From positions 1-52,080 of the forward strand of contig JAAYVH010000254.1 of assembly GCA_012517255.1 (NCBI GenBank): a DNA stretch of 52,080 bases. Direction: 5' to 3'. Each line of letters starts with the position of its first letter. Position 1 is the stretch's first letter. The translations under genes and the position numbers were made by a program. Origin of the DNA: Chthonomonadales bacterium. Lineage in GTDB: Bacteria; Armatimonadota; Chthonomonadetes; Chthonomonadales; CAJBBX01. This document shows positions 7,464-51,859 of this stretch, one piece after another. The notes under the pieces are model-generated. The model saw only the letters and a program-made list of their open reading frames with translations. It made no database searches and was not told the DNA's origin.

Positions 7464-8906
7464 ATGAGTGAACGCAAGTCCGGCGAGAGCCGGAAGGGAC
7501 TCGTGTTAGGCTGGGTTGTGCTCGGCGGCTCCGCCGTGGTATTCGCCGCACTTGGTCTCCTCGCCGGTTCGATTATCGAACGACGCGCCGAGCGCTCAGT
7601 GAACCGCGTCCAGATGATCACCCCCATCGGCGATTGGGAAACCGACAACGAGAAATGGGCCATCAACTTTCCGCGGGAGTACAACTCCTGGGAACGGACC
7701 AGGGAACTGGCTGAGGCGACGAAGTACGGCGGCAGCGAGGTGAAGGACTATCTCGCGAAGGACCCGCGACTTGTGATCCTGTTCGCGGGCTTCGGCTTCT
7801 CCAAAGAGTACAACTCGCCGCGAGGGCACTATCATTCGATCAAGGATGTCACCTCGACGGCGCGCGTGTCTGAGAAGACGCCTGCGACATGCTGGACGTG
7901 CAAGAGCCCCATGGTTCCCAAGCTTATGCATGATAAGGGAGTGGCGGAGTTCTACAAAGGGAAGTTCAAGGACCACGAGGGCGTCATGAAGGACCCGATA
8001 GGCTGCCTGGACTGTCATGACCCCAAGACCATGGCGCTTCGGATATCGCGTCCGGCGCTCAAGGAGGCATTCGCCCGACGGGGCCGCGACATCACCAAGG
8101 CGTCGCATCAGGAGATGCGGTCGCTCGTGTGCGCCCAGTGCCATGTCAGCTACTACTTCAGAGACAAAGAGACGAACTATCTCGTGTTCCCGTGGGATGA
8201 CGGCTTCAAGGCTGATGACTTCGACAAGTACTACGAGCGGACGAAGTTCGTGGAGTGGGTCCATCCGGTAAGCGGCACGCCCATGACGAAGGCTCGGCAT
8301 CCCGACTACGAAGTGTGGCTGCAAGGCACCCACGCGTTCCGGGGCGTCTCATGCGCCGACTGTCATATGCCGTACAAATCGGAAGGCGGAGTGAAGTTCA
8401 CCGATCATCAAGTGCGCAGCCCGCTGTACAACATCGCCAACTCCTGCCAGGTGTGCCATCGCTGGTCGGAGGACGAGGTGAAGCAGCGCGTCGAGAGTAT
8501 CCAGGATAAGAACCGCGAGCTTCTCGACATCGCTGAGGATGCCATGGTTCGGGCGCACATCACGCTCGGCGATGCCGTCAAACTGGGCGCGACCGATGCC
8601 GAGCTTGCGGCTCCCCGCAACATGCTGCGGCGCGCCCATACCTACTGGGACTACATAGCCGCGGCCAACGGCATGGGCTTCCACGCCCCTCAGGAAAGCG
8701 CCAGAGTCCTTGCCAAGGCAGCCAATCTCGCGCAGGAATGCCGCATTGCCACGGAGCGGATCCGAACGAAGTACGGCGCCAAGTCCGAAGCCCCGATGCC
8801 AGACCTCTCCACGAAGGAGAAGGCCGCAGCGTTCGTCAGGCCGTTCGTAGAGGCTCAGAAGGCAAAGCAGGCGCGTGCCCCTCAAGGGCGGACGGCATCG
8901 CGCTGA
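7464..8906 (+). CDS. nrfA: Cytochrome c nitrite reductase catalytic subunit (NrfA), calcium-site variant
   Basis: Pentaheme enzyme reducing nitrite to ammonia with six electrons outside the cytoplasmic membrane. 480 residues: an uncleaved or signal-anchor segment at 13-37, active-site heme CWTCK (143-147) with the diagnostic Lys ligand, then CLDCH (181-185), CAQCH (223-227), CADCH (297-301) and CQVCH (328-332). Catalytic residues of the family are present: Arg134 before heme 1, Tyr230 and His279. Two calcium ligands of the classic enzyme differ: the Glu before the Tyr is Ser229, and the Gln before the His is Arg278 (TKARH). That pattern is known from the calcium-free, arginine-containing subclass described for Geobacter lovleyi. 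It forms one operon with nrfH with no gap. Confidence 0.96.
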   Translation: MSERKSGESRKGLVLGWVVLGGSAVVFAALGLLAGSIIERRAERSVNRVQMITPIGDWETDNEKWAINFPREYNSWERTRELAEATKYGGSEVKDYLAKDPRLVILFAGFGFSKEYNSPRGHYHSIKDVTSTARVSEKTPATCWTCKSPMVPKLMHDKGVAEFYKGKFKDHEGVMKDPIGCLDCHDPKTMALRISRPALKEAFARRGRDITKASHQEMRSLVCAQCHVSYYFRDKETNYLVFPWDDGFKADDFDKYYERTKFVEWVHPVSGTPMTKARHPDYEVWLQGTHAFRGVSCADCHMPYKSEGGVKFTDHQVRSPLYNIANSCQVCHRWSEDEVKQRVESIQDKNRELLDIAEDAMVRAHITLGDAVKLGATDAELAAPRNMLRRAHTYWDYIAAANGMGFHAPQESARVLAKAANLAQECRIATERIRTKYGAKSEAPMPDLSTKEKAAAFVRPFVEAQKAKQARAPQGRTASR

Positions 8907-38104: not shown

Positions 38105-38458
38105 CTAGAACAATCCTCCCGGGAGCCCGGCGGCGCCGGCAATGCCCTTCATGGTCTCCTCAGCTTCAGCCTCGGCGCGATCCTGAGCTTCGCGCACCGC
38201 CGTTACGATCAGATCCTGAAGCATCTCGACGTCATCGGGATCCACCGCGTCGGGGCTCACTTCGATGGACACAAGCTTTCCCTTGCCGTTCACCGTAGCC
38301 TTGACGGCTCCTCCGCCAGACGCAGCTTCCACGCGCGCCGCTTCGAGCTGCTCTTGAGCGGCAAGCATGTCCTCCTGCATCTTCTGGGCTTGTTTCATGA
38401 GCTTGCCGATATCTCCGAGACCGCCCAGCGGGTTGCGGCCTCCGAATGCTGGCGCCAT
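38105..38458 (-). CDS. ybaB: YbaB/EbfC nucleoid-associated protein
   Basis: 117 residues. GDIGKLMKQAQKMQEDMLAA starts the family helix; VKATVNGKGKLVSIEVSPDA is the conserved strand pair; the C-terminal helix follows. Dimeric tweezers-shaped DNA-binding protein. AGGAGG lies upstream of the ATG. It follows dnaX after 80 bases, the usual order, but recR, normally third, is absent. Confidence 0.93.
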   Translation of the reverse strand: MAPAFGGRNPLGGLGDIGKLMKQAQKMQEDMLAAQEQLEAARVEAASGGGAVKATVNGKGKLVSIEVSPDAVDPDDVEMLQDLIVTAVREAQDRAEAEAEETMKGIAGAAGLPGGLF

Positions 38459-38538: not shown

Positions 38539-40215
38539 CTACTGGGCGTCCTGATCGTCCACGACCGCAGCCGGGAACTCGACGAGGACTTGCTGGAGCA
38601 GCGCGCTGCCCGCCGGCCCGGGCTGGTCTTGATCTGGAACCTCCTGCACTGTCGGGGACGCCTGCGCCACCACGTAACGGACGGTATAGCCCGGCAGACG
38701 GAGCTCTTCGCACAGCAAGCTCTCAACCATCTGGCGGGCCTGGGGCCGATCGGCCCGGCTGCGCGCGAACTCCGTGGGGAACGCGACTGTCACAGTAGTT
38801 CCGTCGAGCCGCGTCACTTCCTCGGAACCGAAGATGGCCGCTGCAGCCCTTGACCGCTGCAGCACTCGGCTGCGCACTCTCGGCCAAATCCGCTGCAACA
38901 CCGCAAGGTCAACTTCGGTCGCGAACGGCGCCGAATCGGCGGCAGCGCTTGACGGCTCCGGTTGAGCTTGTTCTACAGGCGCCGGAACCGACTTCGGCTC
39001 GACTGTCGGCGACGGAGCCGAGATGCGTGGCGCATGGCTAGCCGCAACACCCCCGGTCGGTGCCGTCACCGCGCGCCTACTCTGCGCCGCCGCTGGCGCC
39101 TCCGCCGCTTGCCGTGAGATGGCCGATGGCATGATCTGCCAAAGCGCTCGCTCCAACACCAGCCGATGCTGGTTCGTGAACCGGATGTCGCGCTCAGCCT
39201 GGGCGAGCGCTCCCAGCATGGCGACAAGCTGATCGGACGTGAAGCGGAGAGCCTGGCGGCGCAGCGTCTCCAGCCGCTCCTCGGTGGCGCCCTCAAGCCC
39301 GTGGACCGATCCTGCAAAGGCAACGACCAGCATGTCCCTCAGATGGTTCTGCAGCGCCGTCAACACCTGACGAGCATCGGCGCCCGAGGCAAGAACGCGA
39401 TCGCCGGCATCGAGGACGGCTCTCAGATCGTCGCTGCCGATGGCCTCAACGACCGTGTCGAGCATCTCGGTTGTGACGGCTCCGATCGCCTGGTGGACCG
39501 CATCCGGCGTGATCGGACCGTCCGTGAAGGCCATCACCTGCTCGAGCAGGCTCAGCGAATCCCTGAAGGAGCCCTCTGCGGCGCGCGAGAGCAGGAACAG
39601 CGCCTCGGCTTCGTACGGCCGTCCCTCGGCGTCCAGCACTCTGCGCAGATTGGCGGTCAGGTCCCCCGTGGCTCCACGACGGAAGTCCAGGCGCTGGCAC
39701 CGCGAACGAATCGTGATGGGAACCTTGTGGGCCTCGGTTGTGGCCAACACGAAGACAACGTGGGGAGGCGGCTCCTCGATCGTCTTGAGCAGCGAGTCGA
39801 AGGCTTTCTGAGACAGGTCATGCACCTCGTCGATGATATACACCTTGTAGCGCGACTCGGCGGGCGCGTAGCGGGCATTCTCGATGATCTTCTCGCGCAC
39901 ATCATCAATGCCGGTCTCAGACGCCGCGTCCATCTCGACGACGTCCATGGCGTTGCCGTCGCGAATGCGAATGCACGAAGGGCATGAACCGCAGGGATCG
40001 GGTGTCGGCCTGTCGAAGGCCATGCAGTTCAGGGAGCGCGCCAGCAGGCGGGCAGTCGAGGTCTTGCCGCATCCGCGCGGGCCGCAGAACAGATAGGCGT
40101 GCGCAATCCGGCCTGCGCTGATCGAGTTTCGCAGCACACGCGTGATGTGCTCCTGGCCGAGCAGCTCCGAGAAGCTCTGCGAGCGATACTTGCGGTAGAG
40201 GGAGATGTATGCCAC
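38539..40215 (-). CDS. dnaX: DNA polymerase III subunit gamma/tau
   Basis: Clamp-loader ATPase of the replicative polymerase. 558 residues: YISLYRKYRSQSFSELLGQE is the invariant start; Walker A GPRGCGKTS (45-53); zinc site Cys64, Cys75, Cys78, Cys81 (CGSCPSC); DEVHDLSQKAFDSLLKTIEE is Walker B; CQRLDFRR the SRC/arginine-finger region. A proline/alanine-rich linker (about 385-430) leads to a tau-like C-terminal domain. GTG 40215 has GAGG about eight bases upstream. The SRP RNA gene ends about 30 bases before it, the same order as scr-dnaX in Bacillus. Confidence 0.97.
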   Translation of the reverse strand: MAYISLYRKYRSQSFSELLGQEHITRVLRNSISAGRIAHAYLFCGPRGCGKTSTARLLARSLNCMAFDRPTPDPCGSCPSCIRIRDGNAMDVVEMDAASETGIDDVREKIIENARYAPAESRYKVYIIDEVHDLSQKAFDSLLKTIEEPPPHVVFVLATTEAHKVPITIRSRCQRLDFRRGATGDLTANLRRVLDAEGRPYEAEALFLLSRAAEGSFRDSLSLLEQVMAFTDGPITPDAVHQAIGAVTTEMLDTVVEAIGSDDLRAVLDAGDRVLASGADARQVLTALQNHLRDMLVVAFAGSVHGLEGATEERLETLRRQALRFTSDQLVAMLGALAQAERDIRFTNQHRLVLERALWQIMPSAISRQAAEAPAAAQSRRAVTAPTGGVAASHAPRISAPSPTVEPKSVPAPVEQAQPEPSSAAADSAPFATEVDLAVLQRIWPRVRSRVLQRSRAAAAIFGSEEVTRLDGTTVTVAFPTEFARSRADRPQARQMVESLLCEELRLPGYTVRYVVAQASPTVQEVPDQDQPGPAGSALLQQVLVEFPAAVVDDQDAQ

Positions 40216-40244
40216 GCCGGGGCCTCGAATAGGTGAGGATGAGT

Positions 40245-40520
40245 GTGATCGTGCGCCCTGCTGTTGTCGCGTCGGCGCCCGGAAGCCCTCGTCCAACGGC
40301 TACGGCCAGGTAGTCACGCGGCACTCGGGAAGTCATCCTTAGTGCTGCTGCCTTCCGGCCCTGACACGGTTCAGATGCTTGCCGATGCGCGGAGCCCAGC
40401 CATCTGCGCCGCTGCCGAAGGGTTGAACCGGTATCGTGCGCGCCGCCAGCAGGTACATCGACCCCGCTAGAGCGGATTGCGGGTACAGGGCACCGCTAGC
40501 TCCCCGTCTAGCACGATCAC
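40245..40520 (-). ncRNA. ffs: Large signal recognition particle RNA (with Alu domain)
   Basis: About 276 bases on the minus strand. The 5' part has GACGGGGAGCTAGCGG, TGCCCTGTACCCGCAATCCG and CTCTAGCGGGG, which match the Alu domain of the Bacillus subtilis scRNA. The 3' half carries the universal SRP hairpin GTCAGGGCCGGAAGGCAGCA then GCACTAAG (about 40340-40366), the Ffh-binding site. The ends are complementary over ten bases: GTGATCGTGC (5', 40511-40520) with GCACGATCAC (3', 40245-40254). This defines the limits well. It pairs with Ffh to deliver nascent membrane proteins. The rest of 40216-40630 holds only its promoter and a terminator. Confidence 0.93.
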
Positions 40521-40525
40521 ACTAC

Positions 40526-40531
40526 ATTGTA
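40526..40531 (-). promoter_or_regulatory. -10 box of the SRP RNA gene
   Basis: TACAAT on the minus strand; the predicted start seven bases on is 40519, one base from the 5' end set by the closing helix. The -35 (TAGCGA) is poor. Confidence 0.6.
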
Positions 40532-40630: not shown

Positions 40631-42115
40631 CTACTCGGACCGCGTTCCCTGTGCCTGCGTCTGGAGTTCCACGTACTTGGCAGTGGGGAAGACATCCGCC
40701 TCCGTGATGGGCGTCCGACGCAGCACCTGCGCCCGGCTGATCCTGTACACCTTCCGGAGGATGCGGTTCGGCGGATCCTTCTCCTTCTCCTCCCACAGGT
40801 ACTTCTTGTCGGTCATACCCTCGCCGGACCAGCCGAAACGGTCGTGGACAAACGGCGAGGTGCCCCGGGGATCGAACTCGAACACCAGGAAGTAATACGG
40901 GCTCTTGAAACTGTACATCTTGGGGTCTTTGCTCATGTCGATCTTGCGCCCCCAAGTGCCCTGGCGCACCGAATGCTGGTCCTGCATCAGCGTAACGTTC
41001 TGATCAATGTCGAAGGTGAACTCCTTGAGTTGAGGAGGTCGCCAGTCTTCATCGTGCAATCGGATGGTGACGCGCGCGCCATCGCCCACGTTGAAGCGGC
41101 CCTTCAGCTCAAGCACCTTGTCCGCGGTGAATGTCGGTCGCACATCGAACGCGGTTTCCCACTTCGGCACCACGGCAGGCGGCCTTGGCTGGCCAACGGC
41201 CATGGGAGGCGGCGTCTCGCCAACGATCTTGAACTGCTCCAGCTTGCGCTGGATCTCGTCCTGATTCAGGAACAGGTACGAATCGCGCGGGCGCGGCTCG
41301 CCGGTAATGGGGTCAATGCCTTTCGTAAGCTTGCCGTCGAGCTCCCAGTCTATTTCGTGCTGATAGCGGCTGAACTTTCGCTTCAGAGTGAGCTCCAGGT
41401 TATGGCGCTCACTGTCGCGCACGTTCCGCTTGCTGTAATCTTTCGGGTCTTTGCGAACGATCTCGGTGCTCATGGCCAGCGCTTTGCGCCACACGGCGAT
41501 GCACTCGTCAATCCTTCCGAGTCTGGCCAGACTATGCGCCAACTGGTGCCATACGAACATAGGTACCGGCTGGGTCAGCTCGCCACGCTCGTCCATGCCC
41601 TTGCGCTCTTCGGCACACTTTTTGTACCAGTAGTGCGCACGGACGTAGTCCTTGATCTTGTCGGTGTTCTGCCAGCCCAGTTCAAACGCGATGTCGTAGA
41701 CGCCCGGATTGTTGGCGTCTCCTTCTTCAAGCAGCTTCTGCGCAGCGGGGATGTAGCGCCGATCCGATCTCTCGCTCGAGTCCGTGAAGTTGTACGCCAG
41801 GTGCCACGCGCCGGTGATATACACATCGAGATTGTGCGGATCCAGCCACGTCACAATGCGCACCATGGGGAGAATGGCGTCGTAGTCGCCTTCGTGGAAG
41901 AACTCGTCGGCCCGGACCCAGAGCAGACCGGCAACGGCTTGCTGCATGCCGAGAAGCGGGCCCAATATGAACTCAGTCGAAAGCCCCGCGAAGGGAGTCT
42001 TTCGGCCCTGGTTCATGTCGGCGACCGTCGGGTCAATGCGCACCTGCAGCACGACGGTCAGCGCGAACAGCACGACGATCGCCGCGATGAGGTTCCGACG
42101 GGTGGACGCAGTCAT
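40631..42115 (-). CDS. Membrane-anchored TPR-like protein of unknown function
   Basis: 494 residues. One N-terminal membrane segment (about 8-26, NLIAAIVVLFALTVVLQVRI). Helical repeats of TPR type follow: FHEGDYDAILPMVRIVTWLDP, YDIAFELGWQNTDKIKDYVRA, WHQLAHSLARLGRIDECIAVW. The C-terminal half has a beta-rich domain (GDGARVTIRLHDEDW, YFLVFEFDPRG). The gene follows the ABC-2 permease by 12 bases with GGAGG before its ATG and is followed by a terminator. It is therefore the third gene of the ABC operon and may be an accessory part of that exporter. No known family recognised. Confidence 0.82.
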   Translation of the reverse strand: MTASTRRNLIAAIVVLFALTVVLQVRIDPTVADMNQGRKTPFAGLSTEFILGPLLGMQQAVAGLLWVRADEFFHEGDYDAILPMVRIVTWLDPHNLDVYITGAWHLAYNFTDSSERSDRRYIPAAQKLLEEGDANNPGVYDIAFELGWQNTDKIKDYVRAHYWYKKCAEERKGMDERGELTQPVPMFVWHQLAHSLARLGRIDECIAVWRKALAMSTEIVRKDPKDYSKRNVRDSERHNLELTLKRKFSRYQHEIDWELDGKLTKGIDPITGEPRPRDSYLFLNQDEIQRKLEQFKIVGETPPPMAVGQPRPPAVVPKWETAFDVRPTFTADKVLELKGRFNVGDGARVTIRLHDEDWRPPQLKEFTFDIDQNVTLMQDQHSVRQGTWGRKIDMSKDPKMYSFKSPYYFLVFEFDPRGTSPFVHDRFGWSGEGMTDKKYLWEEKEKDPPNRILRKVYRISRAQVLRRTPITEADVFPTAKYVELQTQAQGTRSE

Positions 42116-48276: not shown

Positions 48277-49725
<1,449 letters not shown>

Positions 49726-49728
49726 GGA

Positions 49729-50514
49729 ATGGGACAGATAGAACCAATGCTGAAGATAGACAACCTGCATGCCAGCGTGGAAGGCAACGAAATACTGCGC
49801 GGCATATCGTTGACGGTGAACGCCGGCGAAGTGCACGCGATCATGGGACCCAATGGGTCGGGCAAAAGCACTCTGGCCCGCGTCATCGCCGGACACCAGG
49901 ACTACGAAGTGACGGCAGGCGAGGTGCTGTTTGACGGCCAGAGCCTTCTCGAGCTCGAGCCCGAAGAGAGGGCGTGGGCCGGCGTGTTCATGGCATTTCA
50001 GTATCCGATCGAGATACCGGGAGTGAACAACGCCTACTTCCTCAAGGCCGCGCTGAATGCCCAGCGCAAGGCCCGTGGAGAGGATGAACTGGATGCCATG
50101 GAGTTCATGAGCCTCATCCGGGGCCGGATCAGGGATCTGGACATGGATCCGGCTCTCCTGAACAGGCCTGTCAACGAGGGCTTCTCGGGCGGCGAAAAGA
50201 AGCGGAACGAGATCCTGCAGATGGCCGTTCTGAGCCCGAAGCTCGCCATTCTGGACGAGACGGACTCTGGCCTCGACATTGATGCGCTGCGTATCGTGGC
50301 CAATGGTGTGAACGCCTTGCGGTCGCCCGAGAGAGCCATCATCGTCGTGACGCACTACCAGCGGCTGCTTAACTACATCGTGCCGGACTTCGTGCATGTG
50401 CTGTCTGACGGACGCATCGTGCGGTCGGGCGGCAAGGAGCTTGCGCTCGAGCTTGAAGAACGGGGCTACTCGTGGATCGAAGCCGAGACGCGGCCCGCGG
50501 CAGTGGTGGCGTGA
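49729..50514 (+). CDS. sufC: Fe-S cluster assembly ATPase SufC
   Basis: 261 residues: Walker A GPNGSGKST, signature FSGGEKKRNEILQM, Walker B AILDETDSGLDIDAL and H-loop VTHYQRLL, all in SufC wording. It drives structural change of the SufBCD complex. The first ATG at 49729 follows the sufB stop by three bases; an ATG at 49747 is possible. Confidence 0.97.
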   Translation: MGQIEPMLKIDNLHASVEGNEILRGISLTVNAGEVHAIMGPNGSGKSTLARVIAGHQDYEVTAGEVLFDGQSLLELEPEERAWAGVFMAFQYPIEIPGVNNAYFLKAALNAQRKARGEDELDAMEFMSLIRGRIRDLDMDPALLNRPVNEGFSGGEKKRNEILQMAVLSPKLAILDETDSGLDIDALRIVANGVNALRSPERAIIVVTHYQRLLNYIVPDFVHVLSDGRIVRSGGKELALELEERGYSWIEAETRPAAVVA

Positions 50515-50515
50515 C

Positions 50516-51859
50516 ATGAGCGGTGTACAGACGCATACCGGCACGGCAAGCCACTATGGGCGGCTGCGCGAGCGCGTTGGCCGCCACGAGCCTGCATGGC
50601 TCACGGACTTCCGTGATCGCTCGCTCGGTCGCTTTGAGGACCTGGGGTTTCCCCTGGGCTCCGACGAGGAATGGCGGTTCACGCCCGTCGGGGCCATCGC
50701 CGAGACGCCATTCGGGCCTGCAGACGTGCCAAACGAGGACGACATCCAGGCGGCGCTCGCTCGAGCTCTCTACGGTTCAGCCGACTTCGCGCAACTGGTC
50801 TTCGTCAATGGCATGTTCCGCTCGGACCTCTCGGACATCAACGGTCTGCCACGTTCGGTTGAAGTCGGTTCGCTCCGGAACGCCTGTCAGAGCCATTCCG
50901 ACATCGTGCGCGCCAACCTTGGCGCGGTCGCGTCTGGCGGTCCCAGCTTCACGTCCCTGAACGGGGCGCTCATGGACGATGGGGCGTTCATCCATCTTCC
51001 AGCCGGAGTCCTGGTGGATCGGCCGATCCACATCGCCCATGTTTCCCTGTCAGGCGATTCACCGATCGGCGTTCATCCGCGATCGCTGGTGATCGTGGGG
51101 GAGGGAAGCTCCGCGGTGATCGTCGAGAGCTTCCACGGAGCCGGCGACATGCCGTATCTCACCAATGGTGTCTTCGAGGCAGTCGTGGGTCCGAACGCCG
51201 GTCTCGAACACTACCGGTTGCAGATGGAGGCCGAGTCGGCGTACCACGTGGGCCGAACCGCGGTGAGGTTGGCGCGTGACGCTCGCTACACCTCCCACTC
51301 GGTGGCATTCGGCGCCGCCATCTCCCGCCACGATCTCGGCGCAGTTCTGGGCGGCGAGAATGGCGTGTGTACCTTCAATGGCCTGTACATGGGCGACCGG
51401 CGTCAGCTCCTTGACAGCCACACCGTCATCGACCATGCTACGCCGCATTGCGAGAGCCACGAGCTCTATAAGGGCATTCTCAACGGGCACGCGCATGGGG
51501 TATTCAACGGGAAGGTATTCGTACGCAAGGACGCGCAGAAAACGGATGCCAAGCAGACGAACCAGGCGCTCCTGCTGTCGGACACCGCCAGAATCGACAG
51601 CAAGCCGCAACTCGAGATTTTCGCCGACGATGTGCGCTGCACCCATGGCGCAACGGTCGGTCAGCTCGACGCGGACTCGCTGTTCTATTTGCGGTCACGG
51701 GGTATCTCGCTAGAGGATGCGCGGAGCGTGCTGATCCACGCATTTGCCAGCGACATCATAGACCGCATGTCTCTTGCCGAGATCAGATCGCAGCTCGAGG
51801 GCGTGCTGCTGGCTTCGCTGCCCAAGACATCGACAGCGTTCTGGGAGATGGCAGAGTAA
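50516..51859 (+). CDS. sufD: Fe-S cluster assembly subunit SufD
   Basis: 447 residues, homologous to Suf[21 protein letters not shown] and [18 protein letters not shown] are typical; the His in CTHGAT matches a conserved SufD residue. The ATG at 50516 stands one base after the sufC stop. It completes the SufBCD scaffold. Confidence 0.96.

Follow-up and report, generated by a model that had tools for sequence, protein, structure and literature searches.

The signal recognition particle (SRP), built around an RNA core, delivers newly made membrane proteins, and the Alu half of that RNA is the part that slows translation. How does an Alu domain come to sit in the SRP RNA of a bacterium with an outer membrane, and would it still be at work there? 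Bacterial SRP has been described as split, with Gram-positives carrying an Alu domain and Gram-negatives doing without it (PMC4359368, PMC8137916). The locus that raises the question lies in 52,080 nt of DNA from a Chthonomonadales bacterium of the Armatimonadota (contig JAAYVH010000254.1, positions 1 to 52,080; this whole stretch is hereafter the window). An earlier, sequence-only reading had placed a large SRP RNA with an Alu domain on its minus strand, just upstream of dnaX, and had taken the host to be diderm. The genome encodes an Omp85 match (E 4.1e-39), which supports the outer membrane.

To identify the element, we compared it with the Rfam families. In cmscan, RF01854 (Bacteria_large_SRP) matches positions 40516-40249 of the minus strand over its full length (model 1-256 of 256) with 150.2 bits (E 4.5e-24; gathering threshold 60 bits), and within the clan this model outscores the small-SRP model, RF00169 (Bacteria_small_SRP), which finds the S domain alone. 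This is the Rfam search that the sequence-only reading had proposed, and it bears out the large SRP RNA. The universal hairpin that had been seen is there too, as the GTCAGGGCCGGAAGGCAGCAGC tetraloop region. In fact, the whole architecture of the family can be followed along the RNA: an S domain with a GGAA-type tetraloop and an asymmetric loop (RF00169 match and RF01854 alignment), helix 1 joining the 5' and 3' ends, helices 2-4, the loop-loop pseudoknot (AGCGG with CCGCU) and the UGU motif (CUGUACC). Over the first 57 model positions the Alu domain is nearly letter for letter the RF01854 consensus.

Minimum-energy folding was uninformative and was dropped as support, the fold being no better than that of shuffled sequence (z -0.72), so the case stands on family score and covariation. 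Score, completeness and covariation also rule out a chance match or a pseudogene. Judged by its sequence, the element is a genuine long-form SRP RNA, the single scr gene of this armatimonad and an ordinary new member of the known family RF01854. No second SRP RNA was found in the genome (4.77 Mb, rated 100% complete), a single absence of this kind being weak evidence in a search whose control list missed B. subtilis for both SRP families although its scRNA is present; our classification of long and short forms therefore rests on SRP RNA sequences actually found.

The ends of the RNA were set by the closing helix, in which AGTGTGATCGTGC (40523-40511) pairs with GCACGATCACACT (40254-40242). A perfect helix at the ends had been noticed before and stands, with 13 pairs instead of the 10 first counted. 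The limits first given, 40245-40531, take in the -10 element as well; the hexamer does precede the helix, as had been said, and the RNA itself runs from about 40242 to 40523 (Table 1). An AT-rich, -10-like element occupies the matching place in 11 relatives from the same order, and no -35 consensus is recognisable upstream of the window RNA.

Table 1. Features of the SRP RNA locus and its neighbours in the window.
Feature	Position	Strand	Basis
ybaB/ebfC, next gene after dnaX	38105..38458	-	PF02575 E 2e-32
dnaX (DNA polymerase III gamma/tau)	38539..40215	-	PF13177 E 1.7e-42, PF22608, PF12169
Large SRP RNA gene (scr)	40242..40523	-	RF01854 core 40249-40516; ends predicted from 13-bp closing helix
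Helix 1, 3' strand GCACGAUCACACU	40242..40254	-	complement of 40511-40523
S domain (Ffh-binding hairpin)	40301..40401	-	RF00169 66.6 bits, E 2.7e-14
Alu 5' domain: helices 2, 3, 4 and UGU motif (CUGUACC)	40458..40517	-	RF01854 alignment; covariation
Helix 4 loop CCGCU, pseudoknot 3' side	40471..40475	-	pairs with 40493-40497; covariation
Helix 3 loop AGCGG, pseudoknot 5' side	40493..40497	-	pairs with 40471-40475
Helix 1, 5' strand AGUGUGAUCGUGC	40511..40523	-	perfect 13-bp complement of 40242-40254
-10-like hexamer TACAAT	40526..40531	-	sequence; relatives
TPR protein gene, upstream on the same strand	40631..42115	-	weak TPR matches; outside the SRP unit

The closest known counterpart is the B. 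subtilis scRNA, the 6S-type SRP RNA, with which the window RNA shares a full-length family match, helices 1-5 and 8, the UGU motif, the pseudoknot and the S-domain tetraloop. The surroundings are alike as well, with dnaX and then ybaB/ebfC downstream. In contrast to B. subtilis, the host here is a diderm armatimonad without a detectable HU protein, and helix 1 measures 13 bp. The RF00169 type, that of the E. coli 4.5S RNA and of about 101 other Armatimonadota, has the S domain in common with the window RNA but lacks helices 1-4, which the window RNA possesses. Archaeal SRP RNAs also close their Alu domain with helix 1; they bind SRP19, a protein which, to our knowledge, is not to be expected in bacteria.

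The sequence-only reading was right to place the RNA just upstream of dnaX, whose GTG start at 40215 lies 26 nt past helix 1, but the order scr-dnaX is not the Bacillus trait that it was taken for. The closest DnaX in our named collection comes from an Armatimonadetes MAG (L032, JANYKG010000110.1). When 20 named dnaX loci were scanned, a long SRP RNA adjoined dnaX upstream, besides in Firmicutes, in a Hydrogenedentota MAG, and a short one lay upstream of dnaX in Latescibacterota (L070), Coriobacteria (L066) and Negativicutes, a diderm Firmicute (L039). Within the Armatimonadota, dnaX directly follows the 3' end of the SRP RNA in 27 of the 38 long and 20 of the 27 short loci examined. The order is thus broad and outlasts the loss of the Alu domain. 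The Hydrogenedentota gene (L094:1998-2266) is a large SRP RNA scoring 176.8 bits, so that the long form occurs in that diderm phylum too. No intrinsic terminator was found between the window's SRP RNA and dnaX. Three short SRP RNAs of family f8 (L138, L140, L141) lie away from dnaX and have an intrinsic terminator of their own; the dnaX-linked forms are terminator-less.

How well is the Alu domain maintained? GATCGTGCTAG on the 5' side and GCACGATC on the 3' side are invariant in the 11 relatives from the order; the Alu loops and the S-domain hairpin are conserved too, whereas the stem linking the two domains is variable. Across the phylum, 30 distinct Alu 5' domains have 98.3% of cells in the Alu structure paired, and 11 of its 16 pairs change on both sides; none of 500 shuffles attained the observed values, and sliding the pairing partners destroys the signal. 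The five-pair pseudoknot is paired in 100% of these sequences with double changes at three of its five pairs, which come in A-U, G-C and U-G versions. By eye, L170 (G019) has a U-A version, UGCGG/CCGCA, and L172 (G064) a swapped core in which AGCCG faces CGGCU. Several of the covarying sequences come from families without HU (f1, f3, f8 and f9), and a covarying, intact pseudoknot in those families argues that the fold has been maintained without HU. A few variants stand apart: L175 (G201:C135:2886-3179) has a much enlarged helix 4 arm within its 294-nt match, L163 (G287:C452:1740-1945) combines an intact Alu domain with a shortened stem and an altered S domain in 206 nt, either by deletion or as an assembly artefact, and G268 and G271 each yield two large SRP RNA matches (L166-L169), all near contig ends and probably strain or assembly duplicates.

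We then have to ask how far the long form extends. RF01854 was found at E<=0.001 in 244 of 291 Armatimonadota genomes, several of which are incomplete MAGs, and 147 scored above the cut-off. Taking a passing score as proof of an Alu domain was abandoned, since six genomes just above the cut-off have no Alu helices (G054, G211, G020, G158, G037 and G027), and the gathering score was replaced as definition by a reading of the borderline sequences; G287 scores low and has the helices all the same. In the final tally 141 of the 291 genomes carry the long form and about 101 the short, Alu-less one; G004 and G274, in which RF00169 found nothing, were left unclassified. Direct reading of the sequences established the short form in families f2, f8, f9, f15, f16, f28 and f35; in f14 the short calls are RF00169 matches accompanied by no passing RF01854 match. 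The Alu-loop pattern was present at all 38 long loci and at none of the 27 short loci tested. That the lineage keeps the long form, as had been supposed, is true of the genus and of most of the family (f1), but two members of this same family, G037 and G027, are Alu-less, as is the whole sister family f2. In G037 (L164, G037:C565) a strong hairpin, GGTGGCTGCATCC...GGATGCAGCCACC, stands in the place of the Alu helices, as the terminator of the preceding gene or as a replacement.

Mapped onto an RpoB tree covering 77 genomes (one gene, quick search, no outgroup, midpoint root), the Alu character changes nine times, at least eight of these changes being forced by well-supported branches; if regain is forbidden, ten losses are required, and overall we count about 8-10. 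The natural reading of these changes is loss and not gain: long RNAs occur across the phylum's deep branches and share homology with the long form of other phyla. One RpoB frame (L264, G238:C76), about 1774 residues long, carries large insertions; the SRP RNA of that genome is short and not linked to dnaX.

Which partners does the window RNA have? The genome encodes the matching Ffh that had been looked for (M domain PF02978, E 4.2e-34), and two PF00448 loci account for the G domains of Ffh and FtsY. The idea that Ffh has adapted to the type of RNA was dropped: no feature of the protein separates long from short genomes, two alignment columns discriminate weakly, and the variable C-terminal tails do not track the RNA. 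The Alu domain of B. subtilis has a reported protein ligand, the HU homologue HBsu (Nakamura 1999, as relayed in PMC4359368). Such an HBsu-like protein, also suggested by the sequence-only reading, did not turn up: PF00216 (HU/IHF/HBsu) is absent at E<=0.001 from the 100%-complete genome of the window and from all 12 genomes of its family, in a search whose controls gave a match for 9 of 14 known genomes, B. subtilis among them. The search could have overlooked an HU of divergent sequence, or some other protein that binds Alu. A large armatimonad clade, including the window's own genome (G000) and family f1, has no detectable HU/IHF-family nucleoid protein.

We envision, with a probability of about 0.88, that the window's scr produces a functioning long-form SRP RNA. 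Ffh and the signal sequence would be bound by its S domain. The Alu end, held by the 13-bp helix 1 and the five-pair pseudoknot, would enter the factor-binding site of the ribosome and slow elongation during the hand-over of the nascent membrane protein to FtsY and the translocon. The arrest step is drawn by analogy with B. subtilis, and we know of no other case of arrest by a bacterial Alu domain. There, according to PMC8137916, arrest proceeds by "dock-and-block": the S domain and Ffh hold the signal sequence, and the Alu domain keeps the factor-binding site blocked for as long as targeting lasts. Transcription would start from the promoter just upstream of scr and, as a terminator is lacking, would probably continue into dnaX, with the mature ends trimmed at or near helix 1.

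Since HU/IHF was found neither in the genome nor in the family, the Alu fold most probably functions as bare RNA, or else with some other protein. A non-HU protein may have taken the place of HU, doing for armatimonads what SRP9/14 or HBsu does elsewhere; 78 genomes in which no HU was detected still have the Alu domain, and eukaryotes and Bacillus each place a protein on it. We find this unlikely, given that helix H1 and an extended five-pair pseudoknot substitute for SRP9/14 in bacteria (PMC8137916) and that no Ffh feature sorts long from short genomes. A different objection is that the cell produces the full-length RNA although selection on the Alu half has relaxed in this lineage without HU, leaving a relic close to being lost as in the sister family, with the S domain alone of importance. 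The Alu-less members of f1, the loss throughout f2 and the repeated losses in lineages without HU speak for this, and such recurrent loss among close relatives means that the domain is dispensable and that its contribution in the window lineage may be modest. A relic should accumulate broken pairs, yet in f1, f3, f8 and f9, all families without HU, compensatory changes have preserved helices 2-4 and the pseudoknot, and the window's own Alu domain stays close to consensus. Thus we regard decay as distinctly improbable and retain a functioning Alu domain as the reading of this locus.

Why, then, has the domain been lost so often? A PF00216 protein is encoded in 77 of the 291 genomes (two matches being marginal). 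Genomes with HU comprise 63 long, 1 short and 11 unclassified forms, against 78 long and 100 short among those without. Because shared ancestry confounds such counts, we fitted a rate model on the tree: Alu is lost at a fitted rate of 0.76 per unit on branches that lack HU and of about zero on those that have it (LR 10.85, p 0.001; 8.65-10.85 under four prunings), and none of 100 parametric simulations under independence reached the observed ratio. The association is real in these data, as an association and not as causation, and the Alu losses are essentially confined to lineages without HU. We tentatively propose, at somewhat less than even odds, that the Alu domain was ancestral in the Armatimonadota and was deleted on some ten independent occasions, with essentially every deletion following the loss of HU. 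This would suggest that HU stabilises the domain or gives it a purpose, that its loss permits an Alu-less SRP, and that the window lineage is an intermediate, with Alu and without HU.

The chances are evenly balanced, in our estimate, that the link instead reflects shared ancestry, through one large clade that lacks HU and loses Alu, and no functional dependence. HU changes only about seven times on the tree, nearly all the Alu losses fall inside one HU-less clade, and an independent-pairs sign test has too few changes to reach significance, which is why we relied on the rate model with simulations; the contrast in loss rates, stable under pruning, is what stands against ancestry as the whole explanation. 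HU is also no guarantee that Alu is retained elsewhere: E. coli, Thermus and Lactococcus have small SRP RNAs, and HU was detected in all three among the PF00216 controls. In E. coli, HU is thus able to coexist with an Alu-less SRP. Within the open-access literature, repeated HU-linked Alu loss appears to be unreported.

Diderm Armatimonadota keep the Alu domain in about half of the genomes examined and have lost it repeatedly, down to genus level, with HU varying too. Such variation makes the cause of Alu loss testable by paired comparison of long and short members. This comparison bears on whether HU matters for the Alu domain and on Shine-Dalgarno-like early pauses in the membrane-protein genes of Alu-less members, as proposed for E. 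coli.

Away from the SRP locus, the window also encodes two tandem SufBD-core proteins of Fe-S cluster assembly (48277-51859, plus strand) and a cytochrome c552 family protein of the ammonia-forming nitrite reductase type (7464-8906, E 6.9e-150).
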